Assembly (NCBI RefSeq): GCF_030758935.1
Contig: NZ_CP132333.1
Location: 2,542,992-2,606,991 of the forward strand
Length of the DNA stretch: 64,000 nucleotides
From: Geothrix sp. PMB-07
GTDB lineage: Bacteria; Acidobacteriota; Holophagae; Holophagales; Holophagaceae
Reading direction: 5' to 3'
The position numbers and the translations under genes were made by a program. The notes under the pieces are model-generated. The model did not search any database. It worked only from the letters and a program-made list of their open reading frames with translations, and was not told the origin of the DNA. Below are positions 4,695 to 52,558 of the stretch, piece after piece. The stretch's first letter is position 1, and every line of letters begins with the position of its first letter.

Positions 4695-6770
4695 CTACTG
4701 CCAGAGACTGAAATCGGCCAGGCGCAGGAAGGCCTGGCGCAGGCGGTGGAGCAGGCTGAGGCGCGCGGCGCGCAGGGCCGGATCCTCGCACTTCACCATG
4801 ACGGTGTTGAAGAAGGCCTCAAGGGGGCCAGCAAGATTCGCCAAGGCTGAGAGCAGTGAAGCTTGATCCGGTGCAGACTCCAGCTCCATCAGGAACTCTG
4901 CAAGCAACTTCTCTTCGGGCAGCTCCAGCAAGTTGCCATTGAAGGCGGCCTCGGGGGTCTCGTCCTTCAGGATGTTGCCGATGCGCTTGGCGCTCTGGGC
5001 CAGCGAGGCGAAGCGGGCATCCTCGGCGAAGGCCGAAAGGGCCTCGCAGCGGGCCTTGAGGTCCGCCAGGTCGGCCCAGCCGGTGGCCAGGGCCGAGCGG
5101 CGCACGGAACCGGCATAGCCAGCCAACTCCAGCTGGTAGGCCACGCGGTCCTTGAAAAAGGCCAGGAGAGCTTCCGTGGTTTCGGCCGCGGGCTTGGTGG
5201 CCTTGCTGCCCACGGCGCCCAACGCGGCGCTGATGAGGTCGGCGGGCGTCAGCGCCCAGCCTTGCTCCCACAGGATGCGCACGATGCCCTGACCGGCGCG
5301 GCGCAGGGCGAGGGGATCCTTCGAGCCCGTGGGGATGAGGCCCACGGCGAAGCAGCCCACCACCGTGTCGAGCTTGTCGCAAAGGGACAACAGGCCGCCC
5401 AGAGGTGTGCCGGGGATAGCATCGTCGGCGCCGATGGGCCGGTAGTGCTCCTTCACGGCCTTCCATACTTCCTCGTGGGCCCCCTCGTGCTTGAGGTACT
5501 CGCCGCCCATGACGCCCTGCAGCTCGGGGAACTCGCCCACCATGAGGGTGCGCAGATCGCACTTGGCCTGGCGCGCCGCTTGCACGGCGCGCCCGATGTG
5601 CGCTTCGTCGGTGGAAAATCGCTCAGCGAGGCCTTTCACCAACGTCTCAACCCGCTCTGACTTATCAAAGTAACTTCCTAGTTCCCTCTGAAAGGTCAGC
5701 GCCTTGAGCTTTTCCATTCGGGCCGAAAGCGCCAGCTTTCGGTCCTCTGCGAAGAAGAAGCGGGCATCGTACAGCCGCGCCTTCAGCACCCACTCGTTGC
5801 CGGCCTTCACGAAGCCCGCGGGATCATCCACGCGGTTGGCCGCCGTGAGGAAGAAGGGCAGCAGGTCGGTGCCATCCGGCTTCTCGATGCAGAAGCTCTT
5901 CTGGTGCTCGCGCAGGGAGGTGACCAGCACCTCCTTGGGCAGTTCCAGGAAGGCCGCCGGGAAATCGCCCCGCACGATCTTGGGGAACTCCACGATCTCG
6001 GCCAGGGTATCCAGCAGCTCCGCATCGGCCACCACGCGGCCGCCCACTTCGGCGGCCAGTTGGTCCAGCTGCTGGGCGATGCGCGTGCGGCGGGCCTCCA
6101 GGCTCACCACGACACCGGCGGCCTCCAGCGCGGCCTCATAGGCGGCGGGGTTGGCGATGGTGATCGGGGCGGCGTGCTGCCGGTGGTAAAGGCGGTGGCC
6201 CCAGGTGGTGTTGGTGGCGGTGACGCCATCCACCGTGATGGGCACCACCTGCTCCCCGAAGAGGCAGAGAATGTTGCGGATGGGGCGCACGAACTCGAAC
6301 TCTGATCGACCCCAGCGCATGGCCTTGGGCACGTGCAGCCCCGCGATGAGCCCAGGCAGGGCCTCCTGCAGCAGCTCGGCCGTGGGCCGCCCTTGCTTGG
6401 TGAGCGTCACCACCGCGCAGGGTTCCTTCTTGCCCGCGGGCTGCTCGAAGCGCACGGCGGAAAAGGGCACGCCCCACTTCTCGGCGAACTTCTCACCCTG
6501 GATGGTGGGCTTGCCCGACTCATCCACGCACATGCGCTGAGGTGGACCCACCTGGGTTTCGGTCTGGTCGGGCTGGGAGACGGGGAGGCCCGCCCCACGC
6601 CAGGCCAGCTTGCGGGGCGAGTAGAACACCTCAAGGGCCGAGGTGGCCAGGCCCTGGCCGTTGGCCCAGGCGGTGAAGGCGGTGGTGAAGTCGCGGGTGA
6701 GCGGCTCCAGGAATCGCGCCGGAATCTCTTCGCAGTGCAATTCCAAAAGGAAGGTCTGAGTGGCGCTCAC
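4695..6770 (-). CDS. glyS: Glycyl-tRNA synthetase beta subunit
   Basis: 691 residues from the GTG at 6770, chosen because GGAGGT sits just upstream and GTGA overlaps the glyQ stop. A longer open frame starting at 6863 would run through glyQ. The protein begins [19 protein letters not shown], the typical GlyS N terminus, and contains [15 protein letters not shown] and the [18 protein letters not shown] region. The C-terminal helical part corresponds to the DALR-type anticodon-binding region. With GlyQ it forms the tetrameric enzyme that charges tRNA-Gly. Confidence 0.97.
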
Positions 6771-8904: not shown

Positions 8905-8925
8905 CCTCGTTTTGCGGGGTACGGC

Positions 8926-9963: not shown

Positions 9964-10238
9964 TCCGCTACCGCAAGCCGCTGGCCGAAGTCGAAGCGGT
10001 CACCGAGGCCCACCGAGCCTACCTGCGCGACCTGCAGGCCAAGGGCGTCCTGGTGGCTTCCGGGCCGCTGGAACCCCGCTTCGGCGGCATGTGGATGGTG
10101 CGGGTGCAGGACGAGAATCCCCTGGCGGATCTGGATGCCCTGCGCGATGGCGACCCCTTCTACCAGCACGGCTTGGCCAACTACGAACTGCTGCCCTGGA
10201 AGGTGATGCAAGGCAAGGATGGCCTCGACGCCATCTGA
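9954..10238 (+). CDS. YciI-family protein with 5' end broken by a 7-bp duplication
   Basis: The body (VRYRKPLAEVEAVTEAHRAYLRDLQ... to DGDPFYQHGLANYELLPWKVM) is a full YciI-like domain, with the conserved His in EAHRAYL and the SGPL turn. The natural start should be ATG 9938, behind a GGAGGG ribosome site. From there the frame reads MYAMII and then goes out of frame because ATCATTG is present twice (9950-9956 and 9957-9963). Removing one copy restores MYAMIIVRYRKPL. As it stands only a TTG at 9954 opens the right frame, so expression may be lost or low. Family members are small, dimeric and mostly of unknown substrate. Confidence 0.75.
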   Translation: MIIVRYRKPLAEVEAVTEAHRAYLRDLQAKGVLVASGPLEPRFGGMWMVRVQDENPLADLDALRDGDPFYQHGLANYELLPWKVMQGKDGLDAI

Positions 10239-10249
10239 GCGCGGTACCG

Positions 10250-10654
10250 TTATCGCCGCGGCTGATCTTTCAAGAAGGCCACGAAGCGCATATCGGCATC
10301 ACAGATGTGCTGTTTCAGCCACTCCAGGAGAAAGATCGCCACGTCCATGGTCACCACCTTGCCGCTGGCTTCTTTATCCTGGAACGCCCTCAACCGTGAA
10401 ACCAGGTTGGCGTGGTCGGAGGCGTGGGCCGCGAAGGCTGGGTATGTCGCTTCGCGCATGAAGCGCTCTTCAGCCTGGAAATGCTCGACGGTGTACCGCG
10501 CCAGAAAGGCGAGGGATTCCCGTGCCTGGGCCTGCGAAGAGCCCCCCTTGAAGGACTCTGCCAGGTCGTTGATGGCCGCGAAGAGGCCCTTGTGCTGGGT
10601 GTCGATGGCCTCAATGCCGGTCTCGAACCGGCTGCTCCAGATGGCAATGCTCAT
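10250..10654 (-). CDS. Bacteriohemerythrin
   Basis: 134 residues covering one hemerythrin domain. The diiron ligands are in place: His in FETGIEAIDTQHKGLF, the HFQAEERFM motif, His residues in HASDHANL, and WLKQHICDADMRF near the end. It reversibly binds O2 in the cytoplasm and may store, deliver or sense oxygen. It starts 40 bp after the stop of the large hybrid kinase on the same strand, so the two are probably one transcript. That would fit an oxygen or redox theme for the kinase, but this is inference. Confidence 0.93.
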   Translation of the reverse strand: MSIAIWSSRFETGIEAIDTQHKGLFAAINDLAESFKGGSSQAQARESLAFLARYTVEHFQAEERFMREATYPAFAAHASDHANLVSRLRAFQDKEASGKVVTMDVAIFLLEWLKQHICDADMRFVAFLKDQPRR

Positions 10655-10694
10655 GTGGCGCCTCAGGAAAGGCCAGCCTCGGGCTGGTAGGGAG

Positions 10695-13600
10695 TCACAG
10701 GGAAGGCTCGGGATCGCGGATGGGCCGGATGTTTAGATCTGCAATGGCCCGCTGGATTTCCTTCAGGCTGAAGGGCTTCCGCAGGCTGGATACGCCTGAA
10801 TGCGCCTCCAGCAACGGCGCCACTTCCTGGTCGCTGTAGCCCGTGGCCATGAGCACCCGTAGTTCCGGGCGAAGCGCCAGGATCCTCGGCAGAGCCTCAG
10901 CCCCGCTCATGCCCGGCATGTTCATGTCGAGCACCACCAGATCCGCCTTCTGGCCTGACTCCAGCCAGCGGATGGCGTATTCGGCACCGGGAGCCGTGGC
11001 CACGGTGTGCCCAAGCACCTCCAGCAAGGGTGCGACCGATTCGCGGATCAACTCATCGTCATCCACCAGGAGGATCCGCAGGCGTTCCGGCTCATCCGGA
11101 GCCCCGGCGGAGGGGGCTTCGATCACCGGGGCCATGGCCTCCACCCGCGCCGCAGGGAAGGTCAGGATGGCCTCCGTTCCCTGCCCTGGCTGGCTCTCCA
11201 GACGGAAGGCCCCGTCGTGGGCCTTCATGGTGCCATAGACCATGGACAACCCCAGCCCTGTGCCCTTGCCCAGGGGCTTGGTGGTGAAAAAGGGCTCCAT
11301 GGCCTTGGCCAGCACCTCGGGCGGCATCCCTTCTCCGGTGTCGCGCACACTTAGTCTCAGCCCGCCATCCTCGCTGGGGGCGGTGCGAATGCAGAGGGTT
11401 CCACCGCCGGGCATCGCATCCATGGCGTTCACGCAGAGGTTCATGAGGGCGTGGCTGAGCGCGCCCGGGTCCCCGCGCAACAGCCCAAGGCCCTCCTGCA
11501 GATCCAGTTTGAGGAGGACGCGCTTCAGCGTGGTGTGGCTCAGCAGCTGGCTCATCTCCCGGACCAGGTCATTGAGGTCGATGGGCCTTTCCTCCTGCAA
11601 ATCCTTTTTCGCGAAATAGAGCAGGCTCTTCACCACGCCTCGTCCGCGCATGCAGGCCGTCATGATGGTGTCCAGGCTCTTCACCTCCGGGGCAAAGGGC
11701 TCGGCCTTTTCACGCAGCGCGGAGGCCAAGCCCAGGATGGCGCCCAGCACATTGTTCATATCATGGGCCACGCCACCGGCCAGGCTGCCGAGGCTTTCAA
11801 GCTTCTGGGATTGGTGCAGCTGGAACTCCAGCGAACGGCGTTCCGCCTCCTGGTGCTTCTCGCGAGTGATGTCTTCCTTGATGGCGATGTAGCTCACCAA
11901 CGCCCCGGATTCGTCCCGCACTGGAGCGATGGTGGCGCGTTCGTAAAGGGGTTCGCCGCCCTTCCGGAGGTTCTCGAACTCGCCCACCCAGGTTTCGCCC
12001 CGGGTGAGGGTTGCCCACATCGTGCGATAGGCGGTCTGAGGCGTCCTGCCGGATTTCAGGATCCGCGGATTCCGGCCAATGGCCTCCTCTGCCGAGTACC
12101 CCGTCACCGTGGTGAAGGCAGGATTGACGTACTCGATGATGCCTTCAGGATTCGTAATGATGATGGACAGAGGGCTCTGCTCGAGGGCCACCGAGATTTT
12201 CCGCAGGGACTGCTCTGCCGCTTTCCGCTCCGTGATGTCCTGGATGATGCCCACCATGACCGTGGGCTGCCCCAGGCTGTCCCGGTGGATGTCACCCTGC
12301 CCGTGGACCCAGCGTCTCAAGCCATCCGAGGCTCGCACGATGGGATAATCCAGGTCGAAGCGCTCGTGCCGCTGAATGATTCCGGCCACGTAGGCGCCCA
12401 GCTCATGGCGGAACTCGGGAGCGACGATGCCGATCCAGCCCGCCATGTCCCGCGGATAGTCGGGGCCGATGCCAAAAATCTGCTCAAGGAAGGGGCTGCA
12501 CTGCCAGTGGTCCTCCTGAATGAGCCAGGTATAGGTCCCCACGCGGCCCGCCTCCTGGGCTTCCATGAGCAGCCGTTCACTCTCCAGGAGCGCCACTTCC
12601 GTGTTGCGCCGGTCATCTTCCAGGGCCAGGTGGTCGATGGCGAAGGAGATGTCCATGGCTGCTTCTTCCAGCAGCGCCACTTCGGCCGCCCCGAAAAACC
12701 CCACTTGCTTGGAATAGACTGCGATGGCCCCGATGACGGCTCCAGCGCGGCGGATGGGGAAGGCCGCCACGGATTGGAAGCCGGAGGCGTTCGCCTCATC
12801 CCACCAGGCTTCGCAACCTTCCGCGGTGAGAAAGCCATTCTCCACATAGGCCGTTTCGAGCTGAATGGCCCGCCCCATGGGGCCTGCGCCCAGCGGTGAA
12901 TCGCCGCATTCCACACGGATGCGGTCGAGGTAGCCCGTCTGGTCGCCATGGCGGGCCGCCACCATCACCCGTTGCGAATGGGCCTCCCGCAGGCCGATCC
13001 AAGCCATGTCGAACTGGCCGAAAACCACCATGACTTCACAGATCTTGTCGAACAGCGCCTCCTGGTTGGGTGACCACACGATGGCCTGGTTCACCTGGCT
13101 CAGGGCCGCGTAGAGCTGGGACATCTTGCGGAGTTCCGCCTCCTGGGCACGGCGCTCGGTGATGTCACGGATGAACGCGATGACGCACAGTTGCCCATCC
13201 AGGTCACGCGCCCGTGCGCTGACCTCCACTGGGAAGGGGCTGCCGTCCTTCCGGCAATGGATCGATTCAAACCGGAGGGAACGGTGGGCCTTGGTCATGT
13301 CGAACAAATCGATACCCGCCTGCCGCGATTCCGGCACACGCAGGTCCAGCACGTTCATCTGCAGCCATTCCCCACGGCTGTAGCCGTAGCAGGCCTCGGC
13401 CTGGAGGTTGGCATCGAGGACGCGGCCTTCGCTGTCCGTGAGGAGGATGCTGTCGTTGGCTTCGCGCATCAACCACTCGAAGCGCTGGGAGAGATCCAGC
13501 TGCTTGCGCACCATGCGGGCCTCGTGGCGCCAGATCAGCAGCCCCAGGCCCACTCCGAGCAGCATGAGGGCGCCCACGAGCCCCAGACCGCCCGCCCAGA

Positions 13601-16555: not shown

Positions 16556-18277
16556 ATGCTGACCAACCTCAAGATCGGTGCCCGCCTCGGCCTCGGTTTC
16601 GGCCTCATTCTCGCCCTGCTCATGGTGGTCATGGGCGTGGGCCTTAACCGCATGGGCGTCATCGGCGAGAACACGAAGGAGATTGTCGAGCACTACAACA
16701 TGCAGGAACGGCTGGCCTACGACATGGCCGAGCAGCAGCACATCGTTTCCCGTGTCATGCGCACCATCATCCTGGAAGCCGATTCGGCGGAAAAAAAGAA
16801 ATACGACTCAAAGCTGGAGGAAGCCCGAAAAGCCTACGACGAATCCGCCTCCAAATTGCAGGCCAGCCTGCGCTCGGAGGAATCCAAGAAGCTGTTCAGC
16901 GCCGTCCAGTCCGCCCGGGAAAAGGTCCGCCCCTCCAACAACAAGGTGCTCGATCTTTCCCTCAAGGGTGGCCGGGACAAGGAGGCTGCGGCCGTCCTGA
17001 TCGATGAGGTGCAGCCCCAGGCCAACGCCTTGCAGAAAGACATCGATGATCTGGTTGCCTACCTCAAGGCGGCCACGGCCAAACGCTACGGCGAAGCCAA
17101 GGCCGCCGAGTCGCAGGCCACCACGTACATGATCACCATTTCCGTGGCAGCCCTTCTCGCCGGCATCGTTCTGGCCTTGTTCATCACCCGCAGCGTGACC
17201 AAGCCCTTGGCGGCCATGGGCGCGGTCATCGAAACCGTGGCCCAGGGTGACCTCACCCAGCGTGTGGAGATCGACTCCAAGGACGAACTGGGCGAACTGG
17301 GCCGCATCCTCAACAGCACCAACGAAGGGCTGCGGGAGATGGTGCTGCAGATCCAGGAAAGCGCCCTCGCCATCAGCACCGCCTCGGGCGAGATCTCCAT
17401 GGGCAACACCGATCTCAGCCGCCGCACCGAAGAGCAGGCCGCCAGCCTGGAAGAAACGGCCAGCAGCATGGAGCAGATCACCAGCAACGTGAACCAGACC
17501 GCCGACAACGCCCGTTCAGCCAACACCGAATCCAACAAGGCGCGCCAGATCGCCCAGGATGGTGGCGCCGCCGTCACCCAGGTCATCGCCGCCATGGAGG
17601 CCATCAACCAGTCCTCGGCCAAGATCAACGAGATCATCGGCGTGGTCGATGAAATCGCCTTCCAGACCAACCTGCTGGCCCTGAACGCGGCCGTGGAAGC
17701 GGCGCGAGCCGGGGAGCAGGGCCGCGGCTTTGCCGTGGTGGCCGCGGAAGTACGCAACCTGGCCAAGCGCAGCGCCGACGCGGCCAAGGAGATCAAAGGC
17801 CTCATCCGCGAAAGCGTGGCCAAATCCATGGATGGCAACAAGGTGGCGGCCCATGCGGGTGACACCATCCAGGAGGTGGTAACCAACGTGCAGCGCGTCA
17901 CCTCGCTGGTGAGCGAGATCGCCAATGCCACTCAGGAACAGAGCACGGGCCTCAACGAGATCAACAAGGCCGTGGTTTCCATGGATGAAGTGACGCAGCA
18001 GAACGCGGCCCTGGTGGAAGAATCCGCCGCGGCGGCCGAATCCATGGATGCCCAGGCCCATGCCCTGACGGAAATCGTGGCCCGTTTCAAAACCGGCGTC
18101 GAAGTCCGCCGCACCCAGGCGGCCCGGCCCAAACCCCAGGGGCCCGCAGCCCAAAGCGCTGCCAAACCCGCCAGAGCTGCGGTGAAGCGCGGCCCTGCCC
18201 GCCCTGAAATCGCCCATGCCAGGCCCACGGTCGCCACACCGAAAAGCGACGAGGACGGCTCCTGGGAAGCCTTCTGA
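16556..18277 (+). CDS. Methyl-accepting chemotaxis protein with 4HB-type sensor and CheR-tethering tail
   Basis: 573 residues. The first membrane segment is at about 10-32, a four-helix-bundle-like periplasmic sensor at about 33-187, and the second membrane segment at about 190-210 ([20 protein letters not shown]). HAMP follows (about 211-265), then a cytoplasmic signalling hairpin whose tip reads [21 protein letters not shown] Pro/Ala/Lys-rich linker leads to the C-terminal SWEAF, a match to the xWxxF pentapeptide that tethers CheR and CheB. It couples ligand sensing to CheA through CheW. The ligand is unknown. The signalling half is nearly identical to the next gene. Confidence 0.95.
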
Positions 18278-18351
18278 AACCCGCCTTCACCGCCAGTCCA
18301 CCCCCAAGGGAGCAAGGTCAACCCCTAACCCGGAAGCATCAGGAGGCTCGC

Positions 18352-20079
18352 ATGTCCTTCCTCGACAACTTCAAGATGGGCCCGAAGCTCATCGGCTCGT
18401 ACCTGGTTCTCGCGGCCCTCGCTGCCCTGGTGGGTACCGTGGGCATCAAACAGATTCGTGTCATCGATGCTGCCGACACCAAGCTCTACGAAAAGATGAC
18501 CGTGCCGCTGGGCGAAATGGGCGACATGATGCAGCTCTTCCAGCGGCAGCGGGTGAACCTGCGCGACGCCATCATGACCGGCGACGTCGAACGCTATGGA
18601 GGCCGCATCAAGGAGCTCGAAGGCCAGCTGAACAAAATTGAGGAATCCTTCCAGAAGACCCTCCTCACAGACAAGGGCAAGACGGCCTTCAGGATCTATA
18701 AAGATGCCAACAGCAAATACGACGAGGTAACAGCACGGTGCCTGACCCTCGTCCAGGCAGGCAAGAGCCGCGAGGCCGAGGCCCTCATGCGGGGGGAGGG
18801 GGCCAAGGATCAAGCGGCTGTCATCGAAGCCCTCGACAACATCCAGAACATGAAATTGGAACTGGCCAAGGCGACTTCGGATGGCAACACCGCCATCGCC
18901 AATGGCGCCGTCAACCTGATGCTGGCCATCATGGGACTCAGCGTGGCCCTGGGCGTGGTGACCGGCATCATCATGACCCGCGGCATCACCCGGCCTCTCA
19001 ATCAGTTCGGCGAAGTGCTGCACGCCGTGGCCGAGGGCGACCTGAGCATCCATTCCGACCTGTCCTCCAAGGATGAACTGGGCGTCATGAGCGAGCAGCT
19101 CAATGCCACCATCACCCAGCTGAAGGAAGCCATGCTGCAGGTGCAGGAGAGCGCCCTGGCGATCAGTACCGCCTCGGGCGAGATCTCCATGGGCAACACC
19201 GATCTCAGCCGACGCACCGAAGAACAAGCCGCCAGTCTGGAAGAGACCGCCAGCAGCATGGAGCAGATCACGAGCAACGTGAACCAGACCGCCGACAACG
19301 CCCGTTCGGCCAACACCGAATCCAACAAGGCGCGCCAGATCGCGCAAGATGGCGGCGCCGCCGTCACCCAGGTCATCGCCGCCATGGAGGCCATCAACCA
19401 GTCCTCGGCCAAGATCAACGAGATCATCGGCGTGGTGGATGAGATCGCCTTCCAGACCAACCTGCTGGCCCTCAACGCCGCCGTGGAAGCGGCGCGAGCC
19501 GGGGAGCAGGGCCGCGGCTTTGCCGTGGTGGCCGCGGAAGTTCGAAACCTGGCCAAGCGCAGCGCCGACGCCGCCAAGGAGATCAAGGGCCTCATCCGCG
19601 AAAGCGTGGCCAAGTCCGTGGATGGCAACAAGGTGGCCGCCCACGCCGGTGACACCATCAAAGAGGTGGTGGCCAACGTGCAGCGCGTCACGTCCCTGGT
19701 GAGCGAGATCGCCAACGCCACCCAGGAGCAGAGCACCGGCTTGAATGAAATCAACAAGGCCGTGGTGCAGATGGACGAGGTGACCCAGCAGAACGCGGCC
19801 CTGGTGGAGGAATCCGCCGCCGCGGCGGAATCGCTCGATGCCCAGGCCCATGCCCTGACGGAAATCGTGGGCCGTTTCAAGACCGGCGTCGAAGTACGCC
19901 GAAGCCAGGCAGCCAAGCCCCACACCACCATCACTTCTCAGCCCGCCAGCCCAAAAACAGCCGCCAAGCCCACCCGGTCCGCCCTGAAGCGGCCACCGGC
20001 CCGCCCCGAACTGGCCGCCGCCAAGCAGCCTGTTCCCATGCCCAAAGGCGACGATGACGGGCAGTGGGAATCCTTCTGA
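18352..20079 (+). CDS. Methyl-accepting chemotaxis protein, tandem paralogue
   Basis: 575 residues, with AGGAGG before the ATG. The plan matches its upstream neighbour: membrane segment about 12-30, periplasmic helical sensor about 31-185, membrane segment about 187-207, HAMP, signalling hairpin with the same tip, proline-rich linker and C-terminal QWESF. The sensor domains of the two differ markedly ([19 protein letters not shown] here), while about 250 residues of the signalling domain are nearly identical even at DNA level. This points to duplication, or gene conversion that keeps the CheA-facing part alike while the input differs. It sits 100 bp upstream of cheW. Confidence 0.95.
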
Positions 20080-20179
20080 CCTACCTTGTGAACCGGAACC
20101 AAACTCACACCCAGGCCCCGCCCTTCCGAGACAGTAATCAGCCCTGTCCTGCACGGCGGATCCGATGACGGAGAACACC

Positions 20180-20680
20180 ATGGCTACCACAGACGCCAGT
20201 TCCCAGGGGCTCCAACAAGTGCTTTGCTTCGCCCTGGCCGGTGAAGCCTATGCCCTGCCCATCCTGAAGGTCCGTGAGATCCAGGCCCAGGCCACCATCA
20301 CGCGCATCCCCAAGGCCCCGCCCTACATGCCGGGCGTCATCAACCTGCGGGGCGCCATTGTGCCCATCCTGGAGCTGCGCCAACGATTCTCCCTCGGCGA
20401 GGCCCCCGAAGATACCCGCCCGGTCATCGTCATCGTGGAGGTTCAGGGCCGCACCTTGGGCATCCGCGTGGATTCAGTATCAGACGTCCTGGATCTGGAT
20501 CCCTCCGCCATCCGGCCGGCCCCCGAACTGGGCACCCAAACGGCTTTGGGCCGCGAATTCATCGCAGGCCTGGCCAGCCTTCCAGGCGCCAGTGGCAACG
20601 ATTCCATGCTGATCCTGCTGGATCTGGACCGCCTGCTTTCCGACGGGGAGCTGCTGGCCCTCGAGAACGCCACGGTCTGA
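20180..20680 (+). CDS. cheW: Chemotaxis adaptor CheW
   Basis: 166 residues from ATG 20180, which has GGAG six bases upstream. An ATG at 20165 is in frame but overlaps that site. CheW links receptors to CheA. Seen: VLCFALAGEAYALPILKVREI, ITRIPKAPPYMPGVINLRGAIVPILELRQRF (the central CheW signature) and VDSVSDVLDL. It heads the compact set cheW-STAS-receptor-like-cheY-cheA-cheR-cheD-cheB, most of which overlap by four bases or are a few bases apart. Confidence 0.95.
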   Translation: MATTDASSQGLQQVLCFALAGEAYALPILKVREIQAQATITRIPKAPPYMPGVINLRGAIVPILELRQRFSLGEAPEDTRPVIVIVEVQGRTLGIRVDSVSDVLDLDPSAIRPAPELGTQTALGREFIAGLASLPGASGNDSMLILLDLDRLLSDGELLALENATV

Positions 20681-20684
20681 TCCC

Positions 20685-20987
20685 ATGGCACGGAAGTCCA
20701 CTCCCCCCCTCCCATCCCACGCCCTCGAGGGCGATCTGGATGTCTTTTCGATCCACCTTCAATGGGAACGCCTGTTGCCCCTGCTGGGTGATGCGAGGGG
20801 AACCCTCCAGCTCGATCTGACCGCGATCAGCGATCTGGATCTGTCCGGCCTCCAGTTGCTTTGCGTCCTGGAACACGACTTGAAGGCCAAAGGGATTCCC
20901 CTTTCCATCCTGGGCGTGAAGCCGGAATGGCAGTCCCGCTTCGCGTCCCTGGGACTGGGCGCCCTGTTCGGGGGGGGCCCTTCATGA
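20685..20987 (+). CDS. STAS-domain protein
   Basis: 100 residues, a single STAS domain. The core is TLQLDLTAISDLDLSGLQLLCVLEHDL, with Ser in the DLSG position used for phosphorylation in SpoIIAA-type antagonists, then KGIPLSILGVKPEWQSRFASLGLG. Such proteins act as phospho-switches or binding modules. Here it lies between cheW and the soluble receptor-like gene, overlapping the latter by ATGA. It may regulate the chemosensory array or pair with that protein. The partner kinase, if any, is not obvious, though the REC-HATPase protein at 51647-52558 has an anti-sigma-type ATPase domain. Confidence 0.85.
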   Translation: MARKSTPPLPSHALEGDLDVFSIHLQWERLLPLLGDARGTLQLDLTAISDLDLSGLQLLCVLEHDLKAKGIPLSILGVKPEWQSRFASLGLGALFGGGPS

Positions 20988-22057
20988 ATCGTTGGTTCCG
21001 GGGCGCCCCGGCAGCGGGGCCCGAGCCCATCCTTGAACCGCCACCACCGGCAGCTCCGGATGGACTGTTGCGGGCGAACCTCCTCCGCGTGGCCGCCCAT
21101 GAAGCCAGCATGCTGGAGGGGCGGGTGAATTTCCTCACCCCGGAGCTGATGCAGGTGGACAGCCTGGTGCGAGAAGCGGCGGGCACCCTCCAAGACGCCT
21201 TGAAAACCCTGGACCGCAGCGTTCAGCACCAGCACAGCCTGGCCAGCGACGTGCAGGCCACCATGCGCACCTCCCTCGAGGGCTCTTCAGAATCCGAGGG
21301 CTTCGATGCCATGAGCGCCACCATCATGGGCACCCTCGATGGCTTCGTGAACCACATGCTGGAGATCTCCCAATCCACCGTGCAGTTGGCGGAGCAAGTG
21401 GACGACATCCGTGATCGCTCCGGGCGCATGGAAGGCATGCTGGTCGAGCTGACCGAGATCGCCGGCCGCACCCACCTGCTCTCCCTGAATGCCAGCATCG
21501 AGGCGGCCCACGCCCGCCAGTTCGGCGCAGGCTTCGCGGTGGTGGCGGGCGAGGTATCCAAGCTGGCGGACCGCAGCACGGCCCTCAGCGGCATCATCCA
21601 AGAGCAGGTTCTCGGCACCCGGGCCGCCCTGGACCGCACGGATGCCCAGGTTCAGGCCATCGCCAGCAAAGACATGAACGTGGCTTTGCGCTCCAAGGGC
21701 GAATCCGAAGCCCTGGTGCATTCGCTGCAGACCACCAATTGGCTGGTGAAGGATCTGGTGGGCCAACTGGAGGACAACGCCCGGACCATTTCCTCCCAGG
21801 TGGGCCACGTGGTGCGTTGCCTCCAGTTCGAAGATCTGGTGCACCAGACCCTCATGGCCTGCCTCCAGGATCTGGGCAACTTGCTCGATCAGGCCCAGGC
21901 CTGGAAGGCCTTCGAGGCCAGCCTGCAAGAGGGCGGACCCGAGGCCGAGGCCCTCGCCACCCTTGATGAAGCGCTTCGCGGCATCGAGGAAGCCCGGGTG
22001 CAGTTCCGCGCGGTGAAGAGCGGTTCGCTCAACGCTGGCGATGTCGACCTTTTCTGA
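20984..22057 (+). CDS. Soluble chemoreceptor-like signalling protein with altered hairpin tip
   Basis: 357 residues from ATG 20984, overlapping the STAS stop. There is no signal peptide, membrane segment or HAMP. Heptad-rich helices from about residue 35 onward include a receptor-like segment (MLVELTEIAGRTHLLSLNASIEAA, then GFAVVAGEVSKLADRS). Compared with the two receptors upstream, the tip changes QTNLLALN to RTHLLSLN and [10 protein letters not shown] to AHARQFGAG, in the region where receptors contact CheA and CheW. It has no xWxxF tail. It may be a cytoplasmic receptor, or an adaptor that works with the STAS protein. Confidence 0.85.
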   Translation: MNRWFRGAPAAGPEPILEPPPPAAPDGLLRANLLRVAAHEASMLEGRVNFLTPELMQVDSLVREAAGTLQDALKTLDRSVQHQHSLASDVQATMRTSLEGSSESEGFDAMSATIMGTLDGFVNHMLEISQSTVQLAEQVDDIRDRSGRMEGMLVELTEIAGRTHLLSLNASIEAAHARQFGAGFAVVAGEVSKLADRSTALSGIIQEQVLGTRAALDRTDAQVQAIASKDMNVALRSKGESEALVHSLQTTNWLVKDLVGQLEDNARTISSQVGHVVRCLQFEDLVHQTLMACLQDLGNLLDQAQAWKAFEASLQEGGPEAEALATLDEALRGIEEARVQFRAVKSGSLNAGDVDLF

Positions 22058-22071: not shown

Positions 22072-22434
22072 ATGGGCCATTGCATTCTCACCGTCGATGA
22101 CTCGAGCACCATGCGCCAGATGATCACCTTCACCTTGAAGGGCGCGGGCTACGACGTTCTGGAAGCCGCGGACGGCGTGGAAGGGCTGGAGATGGCCAAA
22201 GGCAAAAAGCTGTCCCTGATCATCACCGACGTGAACATGCCGCGCATGGATGGCATCACGCTCGTGCAGCGCCTGCGGGCCCTTCCGGAGTTCAAGTTCA
22301 CACCCATCCTCGTGCTCACCACCGAATCCGATGCCTCCATGAAGCAGAAGGGCAAGGATGCAGGTGCCACGGGATGGATCGTCAAACCCTTCAGCCCCGA
22401 GAAACTCCTGGAAGTGGTGAACAAAGTCCTCTGA
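22072..22434 (+). CDS. cheY: Chemotaxis response regulator CheY
   Basis: 120 residues, a lone receiver domain. Acidic pocket residues are Asp9 and Asp10 (TVDDSS). The phospho-acceptor is Asp53 (ITDVNMPRMDG). The switch Thr lies in VLTTESD and the conserved Lys in GWIVKPFSPEKL. Phosphorylated by CheA, it would bind the flagellar motor switch. The sequence is close to the CheY type that accompanies CheA in non-enteric operons. AGGAG lies upstream, and cheA starts 7 bases after its stop. Confidence 0.95.
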   Translation: MGHCILTVDDSSTMRQMITFTLKGAGYDVLEAADGVEGLEMAKGKKLSLIITDVNMPRMDGITLVQRLRALPEFKFTPILVLTTESDASMKQKGKDAGATGWIVKPFSPEKLLEVVNKVL

Positions 22435-22441: not shown

Positions 22442-24535
22442 ATGTCCGACCCCATGGCCCAATTCCGCGAAGCCTTTTTCGAGGAGGCCGCCGAGCTCGC
22501 CAACGGCATGGAGGCCACCCTCCTGTCCCTGGATCTGGACGCGCTGGAGGTGGAAGACCTCCACTCGCTCTTCCGCGCCGCCCACTCCATCAAGGGCAAT
22601 GCCGGCACCTTCGGCTTTCCCGCGGTCGCCGCGTTCACCCACCAATTGGAAAGCACGCTCGAGCCCGTGCGCCAGGGCACCCGCCCCATGACTTCAGACC
22701 TGCGCGAACTCCTGCTCCAGGGCGTCGATCTCATCCGCAGCCACCTGCACCATGCCCGCCGCGATGAGGCCCTCCCGCCCAGGGACCAGCAGGCCCAGGA
22801 TGCCCTGGTGGCGCGGCTGCAGGAGGATGGCGGAAGGCCCGGGTCGGCCCCGGCCGAGTCCGCCCCGAACCGCATCCAGGTCACCCAGAGCGGCACGGGC
22901 TTTGCCATCCGCTTCGAGGCGCCGAGGGATGCCTTCCGTCGGGGCGTGAACCTGGAGCGGATCTTCCGCGATCTGGCCAGGCTGGGCACGCTGCGCAGCT
23001 GGCCCGATCTGGCTGCGCTCCCGGCCATGGAGGCCCTGGATCCCGAGGATTGCCACCTCGCCTGGGATTTGCGCCTGGAAACCGAGCGGCCCCTGGCCGA
23101 TGTGGAAGAAGTCTTCGAGTTCGTGGCAGAGGGGGACAACCTCCGCATCCAGGCCCTGACCCCGGCGGGAGCCGTGCCTCCCTTGGGCGACTTCCTGCTG
23201 GCCGACACCGATGTCAGCCCCGCGGACATCCGCGAGGCGCTGGCCCTGCAGAAGCCCCTGGGCGAACTGCTGGTGGACATGGGCAAGGTGAAACCCGAAG
23301 CCGTCAGCAAGGCTCTGGACCAGCAGCAGAAGAAACGGAACCAGGCTGAAGCCTCCACCGTGCGGGTGGCCACGGAGAAGATCGACCGCCTGGTGAACCT
23401 GGTGGGTGAGCTGGTCATCACCCAGGCCATGCTCGCGCAGGCTTCTCAACAATCCAACAGCCTGCAGGGCGAAGAGCAGATGAGCGCCGCCCTGCTGCAG
23501 CTGGACCGGCAGACGCGCGAACTGCAGGAGCGGGTCATGGGCATCCGCATGGTGCCCGTGGAAATGGTGTTCTCCCGGTTCCCCCGCATGGTCCACGAGC
23601 TGGGCAAGCAGTTGGGCAAGGATGTGGAACTGGTCATGGAGGGCCAAGCCACCGAGTTGGACAAGACCTTCATCGAGATGCTGGTGGATCCCCTCACCCA
23701 CCTGGTGCGCAACGCCGTGGACCACGGCATGGAGACCAAGGAGGAGCGCCTGGCCTCGGGCAAGCCCGGCATGGGCACCATCGCCCTGCGGGCTTCCAGC
23801 CGGGGTGGCCACATCCACATCGAGGTGAAGGATGACGGCAAGGGCCTGAACCGTGACCGCATCTACCAGAAAGCCCTGGCCCTGGGCCTTCTCCAGCCCG
23901 GCAACCGTCCCGCCGACGAAGAACTGAACCTGCTCATCTTCGAGCCGGGTTTCTCCACGGTGGAGCAGATCTCGGATCTCTCCGGGCGGGGCGTGGGCAT
24001 GGACGTGGTGCGCCAGAATGTACGCAGCCTGGGCGGGCGCATTGAAGTGGAAAGCCAGAGCGGGCGCGGCACCCTGATCCGCCTGGTGCTGCCCCTCACG
24101 CTGGCGATCCTGGATGGGCTCACGGTGAGGGTGGCTGACGAGACCTTCGTGTTCCCCCTGGCCTCGGTGCTGGAGAGCTTCCAGCGACAAGCCCAGGATG
24201 TGCAGACCGTGAAGGGCGACCGGGAAGTCATCAGCCTGCGCGGGGAGTTCATCCCCGTGGTGCGGCTTCAGAAACTGCTGGCGGTGGGCGCAGAGCAGGA
24301 AGGAACGGAGCGCACCCTCCTGGTGCTGGTGGAATCCGAGGGCCGCCGTGCCGCCATGGCTGTGGATGAGCTGCTGGGCCAGCAGCAGGTGGTCATCAAG
24401 AGCCTGGAGACCCACTACCGGCGGGTGGAGGGCATTTCTGGCGCCACCATTCTCGGCGATGGCCGCGTGGCCCTGATCCTCGATGTGCCCGGGCTCATGC
24501 GCCTGGAGGCCGGGACCGCTGCGGTCGGAGCATGA
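22442..24535 (+). CDS. cheA: Chemotaxis histidine kinase CheA
   Basis: 697 residues. P1 has phospho-acceptor His48 (FRAAHSIKGNAGTFGF). Instead of a recognisable P2, a long region (about 135-300) ends in a helical module, LGELLVDMGKVKPEAVSKAL. P3 begins near 305 (VRVATEKIDRLVNLVGELVITQA). P4 has HLVRNAVDHGME, DDGKGLNRD and FEPGFSTVEQISDLSGRGVGMDVV. P5 is CheW-like to the end. It autophosphorylates in response to receptors and passes phosphate to CheY and CheB. The stop overlaps the cheR start (ATGA). There is no attached receiver. Confidence 0.96.
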   Translation: MSDPMAQFREAFFEEAAELANGMEATLLSLDLDALEVEDLHSLFRAAHSIKGNAGTFGFPAVAAFTHQLESTLEPVRQGTRPMTSDLRELLLQGVDLIRSHLHHARRDEALPPRDQQAQDALVARLQEDGGRPGSAPAESAPNRIQVTQSGTGFAIRFEAPRDAFRRGVNLERIFRDLARLGTLRSWPDLAALPAMEALDPEDCHLAWDLRLETERPLADVEEVFEFVAEGDNLRIQALTPAGAVPPLGDFLLADTDVSPADIREALALQKPLGELLVDMGKVKPEAVSKALDQQQKKRNQAEASTVRVATEKIDRLVNLVGELVITQAMLAQASQQSNSLQGEEQMSAALLQLDRQTRELQERVMGIRMVPVEMVFSRFPRMVHELGKQLGKDVELVMEGQATELDKTFIEMLVDPLTHLVRNAVDHGMETKEERLASGKPGMGTIALRASSRGGHIHIEVKDDGKGLNRDRIYQKALALGLLQPGNRPADEELNLLIFEPGFSTVEQISDLSGRGVGMDVVRQNVRSLGGRIEVESQSGRGTLIRLVLPLTLAILDGLTVRVADETFVFPLASVLESFQRQAQDVQTVKGDREVISLRGEFIPVVRLQKLLAVGAEQEGTERTLLVLVESEGRRAAMAVDELLGQQQVVIKSLETHYRRVEGISGATILGDGRVALILDVPGLMRLEAGTAAVGA

Positions 24536-25392
24536 GCGGACCACGCGGAACCGGGCCCGATCCCCTGGCTTCGGACCGGGAGGCCCTGACCGTCGACACC
24601 TTCAAGGCCCTCCGGGAGCGGCTCTACAACCACTCCGGCATCGCCCTGGCTCCCCACAAGATCACCATGGTGCAGTCCCGCCTGGCCAAGCGCCTGCGGA
24701 GCCTGGGACTGCGCACCTATGAAGAATACCTCCGCCGCCTGGAAACCCCGGACGACTCCGAGTGGTCCGAGTTCATCAACGCCCTCACCACCAACCTCAC
24801 CAGCTTCTTCCGGGAGGGGCACCACTTCACCCAGTTGGTGGAGCTGCTGAAAGCCTCCCCCGCCCCGCCCCGTCGCCTGCGCATCTGGAGCGCTGGCTGT
24901 TCCACCGGCGAGGAGCCCTACACCTTGGCCATGACCCTGCTGAAGGCCTTCGGCCAGAGCGCCGCCATCCACATCCTGGCCACCGATTTGGACACGGCCG
25001 TGCTGGAAACCGCGGCCCGGGGCGTCTATCCCGAAGCCCGGATCGAGGGCGTGGAAGAGGCCTGGAAACGGTTCGCCTTCCTGCGCGGCACCGGTGATCG
25101 CAAGGGCATGGTCCGCCTGCGCCCCGAGGTGCGCCAGCTGATCACCTTCCAGCAGCTGAACCTGCTCGATGAGCGCTGGGACATCGACCGGGAACCCTTC
25201 CAGGCGATCTTCTGCCGGAACGTCATGATCTATTTCGACAAGCCCACACAGCGCAGGCTGCTCAAGCGTTTCCACGACGCCCTCGCCCCCGATGGCCTGC
25301 TCTTCGTGGGCCATTCCGAAGCCCTGCTGGACACCACCCTGGGCTTCCAATCCCTGGGTCAGACCATGTACCGGCGCAGGACGGCCCCATGA
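24532..25392 (+). CDS. cheR: Chemoreceptor methyltransferase CheR
   Basis: 286 residues. The N-terminal helical domain is at about 15-85 and the SAM-binding domain runs from about 90. It includes RLRIWSAGCSTGEEPYTLAM (SAM motif I), ILATDLDTAVLETAARGVY and the FQAIFCRNVMIYFDKPTQ segment. It methylates receptor glutamates. The two receptors upstream carry xWxxF tails of the kind that dock this class of enzyme, which fits a tethered CheR. There is no TPR extension. It overlaps cheA and cheD by four bases each. Confidence 0.96.
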   Translation: MSGPRGTGPDPLASDREALTVDTFKALRERLYNHSGIALAPHKITMVQSRLAKRLRSLGLRTYEEYLRRLETPDDSEWSEFINALTTNLTSFFREGHHFTQLVELLKASPAPPRRLRIWSAGCSTGEEPYTLAMTLLKAFGQSAAIHILATDLDTAVLETAARGVYPEARIEGVEEAWKRFAFLRGTGDRKGMVRLRPEVRQLITFQQLNLLDERWDIDREPFQAIFCRNVMIYFDKPTQRRLLKRFHDALAPDGLLFVGHSEALLDTTLGFQSLGQTMYRRRTAP

Positions 25393-26003
25393 CCCCACCT
25401 CCCGCCTCTCTGGTCCACGGTCGCGCGTCGAAATACCTCGACCGCAACTTCAACCGCCTGGCCATGAAGATCCTGCCTGGCGAATTCTACGCCACGGCCC
25501 AGGACGAGGTGATCGTCACCGTGCTCGGCAGCTGCGTGGCCGCCTGCATCATGGATCCCATCGCCATGGTGGGCGGCATGAACCATTTCATGCTCCCGAC
25601 GAAGCCAGGAGAGCGCGACAAGGACGTGTTCTTCGCCGCCCGCTATGGCGCCGCCGCCATGGAATTCCTCATCAACGACCTGATGCACCTCGGCGCGCAG
25701 CGGGACCGCCTGGTGGCCAAAGCCTTCGGCGGCGGCAAGGTGATGCGGGGCATGACCACCGATGTGGGAAACCAGAACGTGGAATTCGTCCGGCAGTTCC
25801 TCCGCAACGAGGACATCCCTCTCTGGAGTGAGGACATGGGCGGGCCGCACCCCCGCAAGGTCTATTTCTTCCCCCACACCGGACAGGTGCTGGTGAAGCG
25901 CATGGAGCGCACCCACAACGAGACGGTCCTGAACCGCGAGCTGAGTTACATCCAGGAAGTCTCCCGATCCTCGTCGGGCGGTGATGTGGAGCTGTTCACA
26001 TGA
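25389..26003 (+). CDS. cheD: Chemoreceptor glutamine deamidase CheD
   Basis: 204 residues. The catalytic Cys is in VLGSCVAACI, with His in GGMNHFMLP and Thr expected further on. The family stretch VAKAFGGGKVM follows. It deamidates receptor glutamines to glutamate before CheR can methylate them, and in other species also works with CheC. No cheC or cheX gene is in this window. The N-terminal ~20 residues before RNFNRLAMKILPGE are variable. Four-base overlaps join it to cheR and cheB. Confidence 0.93.
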   Translation: MTPPPASLVHGRASKYLDRNFNRLAMKILPGEFYATAQDEVIVTVLGSCVAACIMDPIAMVGGMNHFMLPTKPGERDKDVFFAARYGAAAMEFLINDLMHLGAQRDRLVAKAFGGGKVMRGMTTDVGNQNVEFVRQFLRNEDIPLWSEDMGGPHPRKVYFFPHTGQVLVKRMERTHNETVLNRELSYIQEVSRSSSGGDVELFT

Positions 26004-27058
26004 ATGCGGAACGGAAACGCCGGGTTCTGGTGGTCGATGACAGCGCCCTGGTGCGCCAGGTGCTCGTCAGCATCCTTTCCCGGCATCCCCTGCTGGATGT
26101 TGTGGGCACCGCCAAGGATCCCTACGATGCCCGGGAGCGCATCAAAGAACTGGATCCAGATGTTTTGACACTGGATGTCGAAATGCCCCGCATGGATGGC
26201 CTCACCTTCCTGGGCAAGCTCATGAAGGCCCACCCCATGCCCGCGGTGATGCTGTCCAGCCTCACCGCCAAGGGCACCGCCACCGCCCTGGACGCACTGG
26301 ACCTGGGCGCGGTGGATGTCATCGGCAAACCCGCCATGAATCAGGCCTCTGGCCTGGAGGCCATGGGCACTGAAATTGCCGAAACGGTGTACGCCGCCTC
26401 CCTGGCCCGGGTCGCGGGCCGCCGTGCGCCCACGCCCCTGCCCCATGCTTCGCTGGCTCCCCTGGCCCAGCGGGCCAAGGCGGGCCGCGCCCTCATCGCC
26501 ATCGGCTCCAGCACAGGCGGCACCGAAGCCCTGCGCCAGATCTTCGAGGCCATTCCCGAGAACCTGCCGCCCATCGCCGTGGTGCAGCACATGCTGCCGG
26601 GCTTCACCGCCGCCTTTGCCGAGCGCCTGGACCGCAGCTGCCGGGCCCGGGTGAAGGTGGCTGAGGATGGCGAAGCCTTGAAACCCGGCACCGTCTACCT
26701 CGCCCCCAACGAGGCTCACCTGACCGTGGGCCGGCACAGCGTAGGGCTGGTGGCCATGCTCGAGGTGGGCGACCGCGTTTCCCGCCACCTGCCCTCGGTG
26801 GACGTGCTCTTCCAGTCCGCCGCCGAGGCCTGCGGCCACCACGCCCTGGGTGTCATCCTCACCGGCATGGGTGACGACGGCGCCCGCGGGCTGCTGCAGA
26901 TGCGCCAGAAGGGCGCCCGCACCCTGGGCCAGGACGAGGCCACCTGCGTGGTCTATGGCATGCCCCGGGCCGCCTTCCTGCGCGGCGCAGTGGAGGAGCA
27001 GGCGCCCCTCCACACCATCGCCGGACGCCTGGTGGCCTGGTGCGAGCGGGATAGCTAG
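26000..27058 (+). CDS. cheB: Chemotaxis methylesterase CheB
   Basis: 352 residues. The receiver domain has DD in LVVDDSALVRQ and phospho-acceptor Asp59 (LTLDVEMPRMDG). A short linker leads to the methylesterase domain. Its catalytic residues are Ser in AIGSSTGGTEAL, His in VVQHMLPGFTAAF and Asp in TGMGDDGARGL. It removes methyl groups from receptors to give adaptation. It is the last gene of the che operon, and the next genes are convergent. Confidence 0.96.
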   Translation: MNAERKRRVLVVDDSALVRQVLVSILSRHPLLDVVGTAKDPYDARERIKELDPDVLTLDVEMPRMDGLTFLGKLMKAHPMPAVMLSSLTAKGTATALDALDLGAVDVIGKPAMNQASGLEAMGTEIAETVYAASLARVAGRRAPTPLPHASLAPLAQRAKAGRALIAIGSSTGGTEALRQIFEAIPENLPPIAVVQHMLPGFTAAFAERLDRSCRARVKVAEDGEALKPGTVYLAPNEAHLTVGRHSVGLVAMLEVGDRVSRHLPSVDVLFQSAAEACGHHALGVILTGMGDDGARGLLQMRQKGARTLGQDEATCVVYGMPRAAFLRGAVEEQAPLHTIAGRLVAWCERDS

Positions 27059-51646: not shown

Positions 51647-52558
51647 TTACTTCCTCCGCAGCACCAGCCGGATCTGATTGCCCTTGTCACTGAAATGGAC
51701 TTCATCCATCACCAGCATGATCAATGGCAGGCCGCGCCCACAGTGAGGTGCCATTTCGGAATCGCCGCGCAGGGGCGACAGCTTGCTGGCATCGAAGCCC
51801 TTGCCTTCGTCGCTGATCTCCACTTCGAAGCGCTCGGTGTCCATGGCCAGGCGCACCTCGATGAGGCGGCCTGCGTAGGCCTGATCGGCCATGCGCTGGT
51901 CCCGCAGAAGCCCATAGGGATCCTCCTTTGCGAAGAGGTCGCCCTTGAGGCTGGAATCCAGTTCCAGGTTGCCATGCTCCAGAGCGTTCACCAGGGCTTC
52001 GTGAAAGGCCATGGCGATGACATCCAGGTTGCTGGTGGAGGCGAAACCCATGGGCACCAGGCGGTCCGTGAGGTGCCGCACGAGGCTGGGCACGTTGAGC
52101 TCGTCGGATCGAAAGAGGAAGTGGCGCCGCTCGTTCACCAGGCCCCGCAGTCCGTCATCGGCCAGGCGGAAGTCCCGGTGCAGATCCACCAGGTGGAAGA
52201 CGCTCTGCACCAGGTCGCGGATGGCAATGGGCTTCATGAACAGGTTCGCGGCGCCCAGGCGCATGGCCCGGATGGCGTAGTCCACGGAGGCCTGGCCCGT
52301 CATCAGCACCACCGGCAGGCGCGGATGGGTGGACTTCACCTTGTGGATGACGTCGAACCCATCCAGCCCCTCCATGTTGATGTCCGAAATCACCAGATCG
52401 AATTCCGGCGCGGCGGGATTCTGGATGAGTTCCAGCGCCTGGGCCGCCTCTGAGTAGGCATGCACCTCCATGCCGTAGTGGGCCAGGGCTGACTGGACCA
52501 TGTCCAGCACCGCCACATCGTCATCAATGAGGAGGATATGCGTGGCCTTGCGATTCAT
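51647..52558 (-). CDS. Response regulator with RsbW-like ATPase output
   Basis: 303 residues. The receiver is at about 1-125: LLIDDDVAVLDM, phospho-acceptor Asp59 (VISDINMEGLDG), switch Thr in VLMTGQAS, Lys in LFMKPIAI. An anti-sigma-type HATPase domain follows at about 150-300: FHEALVNALEHGNLEL is the N-box, DEGKGFDASKL the G1 box, HCGRGLPLIMLVMDEV the G2 region. Such proteins usually bind or phosphorylate STAS-type antagonists, so the STAS protein at 20685 is one candidate partner, though distant. No signal for membrane attachment. Confidence 0.88.
   Translation of the reverse strand: MNRKATHILLIDDDVAVLDMVQSALAHYGMEVHAYSEAAQALELIQNPAAPEFDLVISDINMEGLDGFDVIHKVKSTHPRLPVVLMTGQASVDYAIRAMRLGAANLFMKPIAIRDLVQSVFHLVDLHRDFRLADDGLRGLVNERRHFLFRSDELNVPSLVRHLTDRLVPMGFASTSNLDVIAMAFHEALVNALEHGNLELDSSLKGDLFAKEDPYGLLRDQRMADQAYAGRLIEVRLAMDTERFEVEISDEGKGFDASKLSPLRGDSEMAPHCGRGLPLIMLVMDEVHFSDKGNQIRLVLRRK

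Follow-up and report, generated by a model that had tools for sequence, protein, structure and literature searches.

A soluble receptor-like protein with a CheZ-type DxxxQ motif in a che operon of Geothrix sp. PMB-07: a candidate CheY-P phosphatase

Introduction

By gene order and tail, the protein family analysed here resembles the McpA-like receptors of F7 chemosensory clusters. In the available parts of Ortega et al. (PMC7184735), mcpA-like genes are placed in ancestral F7 clusters with the order cheB, mcpA-like, STAS, serine phosphatase, and the encoded receptors are described as fitting no heptad class and as possessing a highly conserved C-terminus of unclear role. The same extracts state that the F7 arrays of Pseudomonas aeruginosa and Vibrio cholerae form without McpA-like proteins and that cheZ is missing from stage 1 and stage 2 F7 clusters. 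As far as the accessible sections of a V. cholerae review (PMC7534058) extend, the experiments on VCA1088 are confined to an array-neutral deletion. For S. oneidensis McpA, the available text of PMC9855816 reports clustering with CheA3 and a polar clustering that needs CheA3/CheW3; deletion of mcpA left swimming unchanged, and overproduction of McpA increased swimming, as it did with other receptors. A link between REC-PP2C, STAS and chemoreceptor proteins has been proposed for Campylobacterota (PMC9239204, in extract).

V. cholerae CheY4 (structures 4h60 and 4hnr) is encoded in a cluster without cheZ, and in the accessible part of Biswas et al. (PMC3774744) efficient interaction with CheZ is not expected and VcCheY4 is proposed as a possible phosphate sink. 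CheZ itself uses DXXXQ as its phosphatase motif, with the C-terminal region as the CheY-binding part (PMC7750401, in extract). Within the accessible portions of the literature searched, McpA-like proteins were nowhere assigned a function as phosphatases, and a DxxxQ motif in receptors was not mentioned. Here we describe a receptor-like protein that bears such a motif and propose, on the basis of sequence comparison and a structural model, that it is probably a CheZ-like CheY-P phosphatase built on a receptor scaffold.

Results and discussion

An overlapping STAS and receptor-like gene pair in a che operon

The window, i.e., the whole stretch of 64,000 nucleotides analysed (Geothrix sp. PMB-07, NZ_CP132333.1, positions 2,542,992 to 2,606,991), contains a che operon in the order mcp, mcp, cheW, STAS, receptor-like, cheY, cheA, cheR, cheD, cheB, with the following features:

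16556..18277, + strand: canonical chemoreceptor 1 (4HB sensor, HAMP, canonical tip, WEAF tail)
18352..20079, + strand: canonical chemoreceptor 2 (4HB sensor, HAMP, canonical tip, WESF tail)
20165..20680, + strand: CheW (Pfam CheW 2.7e-38)
20685..20987, + strand: STAS protein, 100 aa (Pfam STAS_2 2.1e-11; family comparison)
20984..22057, + strand: soluble receptor-like protein P0001, 357 aa, predicted long antiparallel helical hairpin
21464..21541, + strand: hairpin tip, residues 161-186, altered at receptor positions 373, 376, 388, 390-392 and 394
21824..21847, + strand: QFEDLVHQ, residues 281-288, CheZ-type DxxxQ motif (D284, Q288) on the returning helix
22037..22054, + strand: C-terminal tail GDVDLF, residues 352-357, family-conserved
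22072..22434, + strand: CheY, proposed substrate (Pfam; closest solved sequences 4h60 and 4hnr)
22442..24535, + strand: CheA (Pfam Hpt, H-kinase_dim, HATPase_c, CheW)
24532..25392, + strand: CheR (Pfam)
25389..26003, + strand: CheD (Pfam CheD 7.6e-31)
25980..26000, + strand: last seven residues of CheD, GDVELFT, resembling the tail of the receptor-like protein
26000..27058, + strand: CheB (Pfam)

The original prediction had described a STAS gene and a receptor-like gene overlapping by ATGA within the che operon, and the coordinates of the two coding sequences (20685-20987 and 20984-22057) confirm this. The conservation of the pair was likewise borne out by a search of other che operons: 20 of the 22 Holophagaceae che-operon members had a STAS gene no more than 1.5 kb away; the two remaining cases are a merged open reading frame (L041) and a contig cut (L043). 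In L041 (3639-5939, the same region as L012), the STAS and receptor-like coding sequences lie in one open frame with ambiguous residues, which probably reflects an assembly error and not a fusion. Across the genus, the receptor-like protein and the operon cheA (E<=1e-100) were present in the same 13 of 25 genomes, so that the protein can be assigned to the operon in the sense of membership, not of function. The two tandem receptors (16556-20079) have near-identical signalling domains and different sensor parts. Residues 247-295 of CheA, which follow the Hpt part and precede the dimerisation domain, gave 35.7 bits (cut-off 38) with an MshE-related c-di-GMP-binding motif model.

Distribution of the family

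A scan of the genome collection returned 36 loci, of which 32 were family members; among these are records under the names Nitrospira, Manganitrophaceae, Chitinimonas, Rhodocyclaceae and Sedimenticola. Neither score nor motif placed L055-L058 in the family. Motif and tail were both retained in seven members from outside the Holophagaceae that were inspected by eye. Of 276 genomes from the class to which Chitinimonas belongs, 78 gave a match at E<=1e-30, and some of the weakest of these matches may be ordinary receptors. Plasmids searched by tblastn with the L052 relative as query gave nothing at E<=1e-30. A lineage-specific oddity was ruled out by the relatives in Nitrospira/Manganitrophaceae, Chitinimonas, Rhodocyclaceae and gammaproteobacterial records.

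Rows were assigned to the family if they exceeded 110 bits against the A3 profile, and they fell into two subfamilies: A, with QFEDxxxQ and, as a rule, a tail [DE][VI][DE]LF, and B, with a tail ending in FF and, as a rule, QFQDRxxQ. One row, L123 (score 119, unrelated tail), was kept in the motif counts and left out of the neighbour, tip and anchor counts. A receiver gene (CheY, another REC protein or REC-PP2C, with CheB and CheA excluded) was found in the same orientation and no more than 1.5 kb away in at least 75 of 85 distinct members and a STAS gene in at least 62 of 85, both counts being lower bounds because in 25 of the 85 loci the sequence available on one side falls short of 2.5 kb. 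The gene order of B was receptor-like, cheY, STAS, cheA in 12 of 14 cases, and this QFQDRxxQ set beside cheY-STAS-cheA we take to be F8-like.

The proteobacterial relatives share the neighbourhood cheR-cheD-cheB-(receptor-like)-STAS-PP2C with the McpA-like F7 receptors PA0180/CttP, VCA1088 and SO_2117 (PMC7184735, in extract). Further points of likeness are the receptor signalling domain common to the family and a conserved C-terminus in which valine replaces the pentapeptide aromatic, a definition (PMC7184735, in extract) that GDVDLF fits; the likeness to PA0180, VCA1088 and SO_2117 is thus one of gene order, described features and tail, and homology to them is only presumed. In contrast, the Holophagaceae form has the gene order STAS-(receptor-like)-cheY-cheA, an altered tip and no membrane segment. 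Since a transmembrane region was found in 0 of 22 Holophagaceae che-operon members, we filed the protein as a soluble relative of the McpA-like group, not as a member. Among solved sequences, the window CheY is closest to VcCheY4 of an F7 cluster; this and the gene order of the relatives suggest, but no more than suggest, a che cluster of the F7 type.

A CheZ-type motif on the returning helix

The receptor-like protein carries QFEDLVHQ in its returning helix; the CheZ counterpart aligned to E. coli 1kmi, DFQDLTGQ, contains D143 and Q147 (D143xxxQ147). All 15 sequences of the first family alignment read QFED[LM]V[HR]Q. Among the aligned family rows, with the window counted twice, D was kept in 85 of 86 and Q in 86 of 86, the sole D exception being L123, whose unrelated tail marks it as no true member. 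The pattern xF[EQ]DxxxQ was present in 68/70 A tails and 13/15 B tails, compared with 0/52 ordinary MCP tails (tails differing by one residue were counted separately); three of the four exceptions retain D and Q (FGDLVGQ, FDDIVSQ, YQDVVRQ), and the fourth is L123. In a six-frame translation of loci L001-L134, [LIMV]QF[EQ]DxxxQ occurred in 113 of 7650 segments, every one a family member. After the tip, the DxxxQ stretch is the best-conserved part of the protein. The original prediction overlooked this CheZ-type motif.

The spacing of the motif is constant as well. From the tip asparagine to the motif D we counted 115 residues in A and 115-116 in B (two outlying A values stem from the pattern matching elsewhere; L123 was left out), and the median distance from the motif D to the C-terminus was 75 residues in A and 74 in B. 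In the CheZ set, the latter distance is mostly about 70-83 residues (27 CheZ; four unparsed, one misplaced). D and Q point ~165 (A) and ~156 (B) degrees away from the hydrophobic face, the value for CheZ being ~165, which places DxxxQ on a helix face whose exposure is a hydropathy prediction. The family therefore resembles CheZ (1kmi, PF04344) in the predicted exposed DxxxQ, in its F[EQ]D context and in an acidic-hydrophobic tail with a final F that closes the protein ~70-75 residues further on. It differs from CheZ in its scaffold, a receptor hairpin with a tip, and in not reaching the Pfam CheZ profile.

Profile comparison with CheZ

A first CheZ alignment scored 43.5 against A and 51.8 against B, with 40 shuffles each yielding at most 20.6 and 20.8; ordinary MCPs scored 24.1 and aligned at another place. 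These scores are flattering, as the 26 rows had been picked by the motif itself, with four loci dropped, and included a spurious ORF row (L145) and the genome's own divergent CheZ-like proteins. With a cleaner set of 27 proteobacterial CheZ chosen regardless of motif, the scores were 33.1 (A) and 37.6 (B), with 20 shuffles at or below 19.3 and 17.1 and MCPs at 19.9, and the HHalign probability was 25.6% (A) and 53.0% (B) compared to 81.7 and 92.6 for the first set. Masking of the motif in the first set reduced the scores from 43.5 to 25.7 (A) and from 51.8 to 31.1 (B), i.e., towards the MCP value of 24.1, indicating that most of the CheZ likeness is the motif itself. The firm part is that the active-site helix is CheZ-like; a relation to CheZ by descent is no more than possible, and convergence or a short chance similarity on a helix may account for the likeness.

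Single-sequence searches returned family members almost exclusively: 36 of 37 matches at E<=1 for the first CheZ HMM (best 2.4e-7; the other match 0.98) and all eight matches at E<=1 for the cleaner HMM (best 2.2e-6), with some proteins present under two locus names. The CheZ profile had no match at E<=10 in the window, the receptor-like protein included, and Pfam CheZ (PF04344) likewise gave no match to this protein at E<=10. Of eight relatives scanned with Pfam CheZ, three gave matches, at 3.7e-4, 6.6e-4 and 0.42, all below the cut-off. CheC/CheX/FliY phosphatases with CheD would fill the same role, and no Pfam match to CheC, CheX or FliY was found in the receptor-like protein. We count the failure of both CheZ profiles to find the window protein by itself, the weak HHalign result with the cleaner set, the dominance of the motif in the signal and the missing structural match to CheZ (see below) against the phosphatase reading.

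Receptor fold, altered tip and missing anchor

The AlphaFold2 model (13-row alignment; pLDDT 77.3, pTM 0.40) predicts one long hairpin with helices 28-97 and 105-176, a turn, and helices 181-315 and then 320-346. Among solved structures, it was best matched by 2ch7, the cytoplasmic domain of a chemoreceptor (Z 14.3; 295 residues at rmsd 8.7); the solved matches listed were receptors, and CheZ was not among them, an absence that rules out no relation to CheZ. As the structure-comparison tool warns that helical bundles reach high scores by chance, the predicted fold says receptor-like and nothing more. MCPsignal (1.9e-17, residues 133-270) was the sole Pfam match above cut-off. The absence of a membrane part and of HAMP, claimed at the outset, was upheld: the best 19-residue hydropathy mean was 0.89, giving no membrane segment, and neither a HAMP nor a sensor domain was found above the Pfam cut-offs.

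The receptor tip of 6s1k (an E. coli chain that we take to be Tsr) matched the model over 102 residues gap-free at 1.2 A, model residues 128-229 corresponding to chain residues 340-441 (offset 212). In this register, G161 stands at F373, H164 at N376, H176 at R388, R178 at G390, Q179 at E391 and A182 at R394; Q392 is also changed, and E385, F396 and V398 are kept. The changed positions normally contact CheA, CheW or neighbouring dimers. The structural register thus substantiates the altered tip, with changes at 373, 376, 388, 390-392 and 394. The protein accordingly shows none of the marks of a canonical chemoreceptor, i.e., HAMP or sensor domain and a canonical CheA/CheW-binding tip.

This state is general in the Holophagaceae, in which anchor and canonical tip are absent and motif and tail are kept. 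All 22 che-operon members have H at 388, R at 390, F at 392 and A at 394, and H, R and A at 388, 390 and 394 recur in all four Holophagaceae paralogue forms; position 373 does not set the group apart, F being missing there from relatives whose tip is otherwise canonical as well. No membrane segment was found in 26/26 Holophagaceae forms (22 che-operon, 4 paralogue; the cut start of L043 makes it uninformative). Parsed members outside the Holophagaceae keep R388 (36/38 A, 13/13 B), E391 (36/38 A, 12/13 B) and R394 (51/51), and hydropathy indicates an N-terminal hydrophobic segment in 36/38 A and 13/13 B (49/51 in total); these tables omit 8 of 85 members whose tip was not parsed by the pattern. 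We read the Holophagaceae state as an apparent loss.

The anchored relatives bear on a different explanation, according to which the family consists of genuine accessory chemoreceptors of the McpA type that join arrays and modulate CheA, the DxxxQ helix being a structural or adaptation element. The retained R388 and N-terminal segment outside the Holophagaceae agree with it, as does the presence of S. oneidensis McpA with CheA3 and its CheA3/CheW3-dependent polar clustering (PMC9855816, in extract); the clustering with CheA3, the normal swimming after mcpA deletion and the receptor-like effect of McpA overproduction count against the phosphatase reading. However, the Holophagaceae forms have kept the motif without canonical tip or anchor, the window protein has no sensor domain, and the F7 arrays of P. 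aeruginosa and V. cholerae form without McpA-like proteins according to the available parts of PMC7184735, so that we consider this explanation unlikely. The initial suggestion of an accessory array component may hold for relatives with anchor and canonical tip, but fits poorly with the Holophagaceae forms, which have neither.

A C-terminal tail shared with CheD

The family tail is of the type [DE][VI][DE]LF and lies ~74 residues past the DxxxQ motif. The receptor-like protein had been said to possess no tether tail, which is correct for the CheR-type W..F pentapeptide but misses the conserved GDVDLF. A similar tail, [DE]VELF[TS], ends 17/17 complete Holophagaceae CheD, and [DE][VI][DE]LF was found on CheD in 12/13 other A clusters read; in the odd cluster, L111, both tails deviate together (GEVVFF in the receptor-like protein, GQVSFL in CheD). 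In B clusters, CheD ends in DVEFW and DITFF in two, and a tail of this kind was absent from the third (L122). Among CheD proteins from the relatives search, 12/12 complete ones from genomes with the receptor-like protein bear the tail, and the 11 tail-less ones all come from genomes without it (G006, G008, G018, G030, G034, G036, G038); the CheD of L228, cut by a contig end, was excluded from the count. Three genomes (G051, G070, G074) have the CheD tail and no family match at E<=1e-30, absence in G074 meaning that it is missing from the list of 78 genomes with matches. A tail specific to the receptor-like protein was ruled out, as CheD bears it too, including in these three genomes.

The persistence of the tail on CheD where the family was not detected suggests that CheY or another core protein is its likely partner. 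The tail resembles the CheY-binding peptides of FliM and of CheZ. In CheZ, the CheY-binding tail VDDLLxSLGF stands at a similar distance from the motif and differs in detail from [DE][VI][DE]LF. The tail common to CheD and the receptor-like protein also recalls CheC-CheD coupling. Motif and tail could, alternatively, bind CheY-P without catalysis and make the protein a docking or sink protein; this would follow the same binding logic as the phosphatase reading, and VcCheY4, the closest solved match to the window CheY, has been proposed as a possible phosphate sink (PMC3774744, in extract). Nevertheless, both CheZ catalytic positions are kept and not merely a binding surface, and we regard docking alone as quite unlikely.

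Proposed mechanism and implications

The phosphatase reading draws on the motif, its conservation and spacing, and the gene context, including the receiver gene close to most members, together with a predicted fold and a predicted exposure of the motif. For the putative phosphatase, the tail would recruit the phosphorylated CheY encoded in its operon, on which Q288 and D284 would act in the manner of CheZ, and the reset of CheY would follow. Most relatives, with their membrane anchor and canonical tip, could sit in the array; the Holophagaceae form, having neither, would act free in the cytoplasm.

A broader and more tentative proposal, which we hold to be possible though rather doubtful, is that all McpA-like F7 receptors and the QFQDRxxQ set beside cheY-STAS-cheA are array-anchored CheY-P phosphatases and not sensors, with CheD bearing the same docking tail and CheZ possibly sharing their ancestry. 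If this were true, the phosphatase and the receptor deamidase CheD would be rivals for CheY and form a feedback loop of the CheC-CheD kind, and CheZ may be a stripped receptor hairpin, or a receptor form may have captured the CheZ helix. The accessible parts of the cited papers leave the McpA-like role and the conservation of the C-terminus unexplained (PMC7184735, PMC7534058), and the F7 stage 1/2 and cheY4 clusters without cheZ (PMC7184735, PMC3774744, both in extract) raise the question, drawn by us, of how CheY is reset there. A phosphatase on a receptor scaffold would answer all three points with one claim and would offer a possible route relating CheZ and receptors.

The STAS protein

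At the equivalent of the switch site, the window STAS protein reads DLDLSGLQLL, and it has D-[LMA]-S-G in common with its genus orthologues encoded ahead of the receptor-like gene. In the classical STAS switch, a known serine is phosphorylated. The STAS proteins of the family neighbourhoods are of two kinds, a DSSALGMLL type beside REC-PP2C genes (DSA in L114) and a type beside cheA, cheY or cheW with sites such as DLSGLQLL, DTAGLQLL and DGAGLQLL, to which the window protein belongs. No PP2C gene was found within 1.5 kb of the receptor-like gene in 22/22 Holophagaceae che-operon members. Compared with phospho-regulated STAS proteins of the SpoIIAA/RsbV type, the window STAS lacks both the Ser/Thr pair and a cognate PP2C gene within 1.5 kb, which makes a phospho-switch unlikely; a STAS partner switch as the main reading was ruled out on the same two grounds. 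L039, L040 and L042 have a second, DSA-type STAS after cheB, ~6 kb away, followed in L042 by a receiver gene.

Control of the receptor-like protein by the phosphorylation state of STAS is very unlikely, given that the directly upstream STAS reads D[LMA]SG with no PP2C nearby, even though the adjacency is conserved, the receptor-like protein is accompanied by a DSS-type STAS and a REC-PP2C(-HATPase) gene in the paralogue operon and in many relatives, the three loci above have their distant DSA-type STAS, and a REC-PP2C/STAS/chemoreceptor link has been proposed in Campylobacterota (PMC9239204, in extract). The switch controlled by STAS, as envisaged in the original prediction, is also at odds with the receiver gene being a more constant neighbour than the STAS gene (75 vs 62 of 85). 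The STAS protein may better be described as a conserved operon partner, perhaps an adaptor. The REC-HATPase protein that had been named as a possible interaction partner lies elsewhere in the window:

51647..52558, - strand: REC-HATPase protein (Response_reg 4.9e-25, HATPase_c_2 6.7e-17)

The paralogue and other CheZ-like genes of the genome

The remainder of the genome contains the following related features:

L021, 6253..9460, - strand: paralogue operon (receptor-like, DSS-type STAS, REC-SpoIIE-HATPase)
L021, 8315..9370, - strand: paralogue of the receptor-like protein, 38% identity to the window protein
L238 (G000:C1:3058000-3073000), ~5444-5467 and 6289-10992, - strand: second che cluster
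L239 (G000:C1:1783500-1795500), 5706..6671, - strand: HAMP-CheZ protein (Pfam HAMP 7.1e-9, CheZ 1.1e-8)

The paralogue has the motif QFEDMVRQ, the tail GDVELF and an altered tip as in the window protein. It differs in its surroundings: no che profile match was obtained beside it, its STAS has DSS, and the neighbouring receiver is part of a PP2C-type protein. This gene order recalls mcpA with crsA/crsR in the S. oneidensis che1 locus (PMC9855816, in extract).

The second che cluster comprises cheY, a CheZ-like protein, a triple CheW, CheA and a CheW-domain protein with a terminal QFQDIARQ helix. The CheZ-like protein reached 27.7 bits with Pfam CheZ (cut-off 30.7), and its N-terminus presumably resembles the FliM CheY-binding peptide. 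Its gene adjoins cheY, a place taken in the window by the receptor-like gene. We count this cheZ-like gene beside cheY, together with the missing CheZ-profile match in the window, in favour of the phosphatase reading. The CheW-domain protein had no Pfam CheZ match and is a possible same-genome precedent for a CheZ-type helix on an array component. In the entire 4.24-Mb genome, the coding pattern QF[QE]DxxxQ occurred five times (reversed control 0), namely in the window protein, the paralogue, the HAMP-CheZ protein, the CheZ-like protein and the CheW-domain protein.
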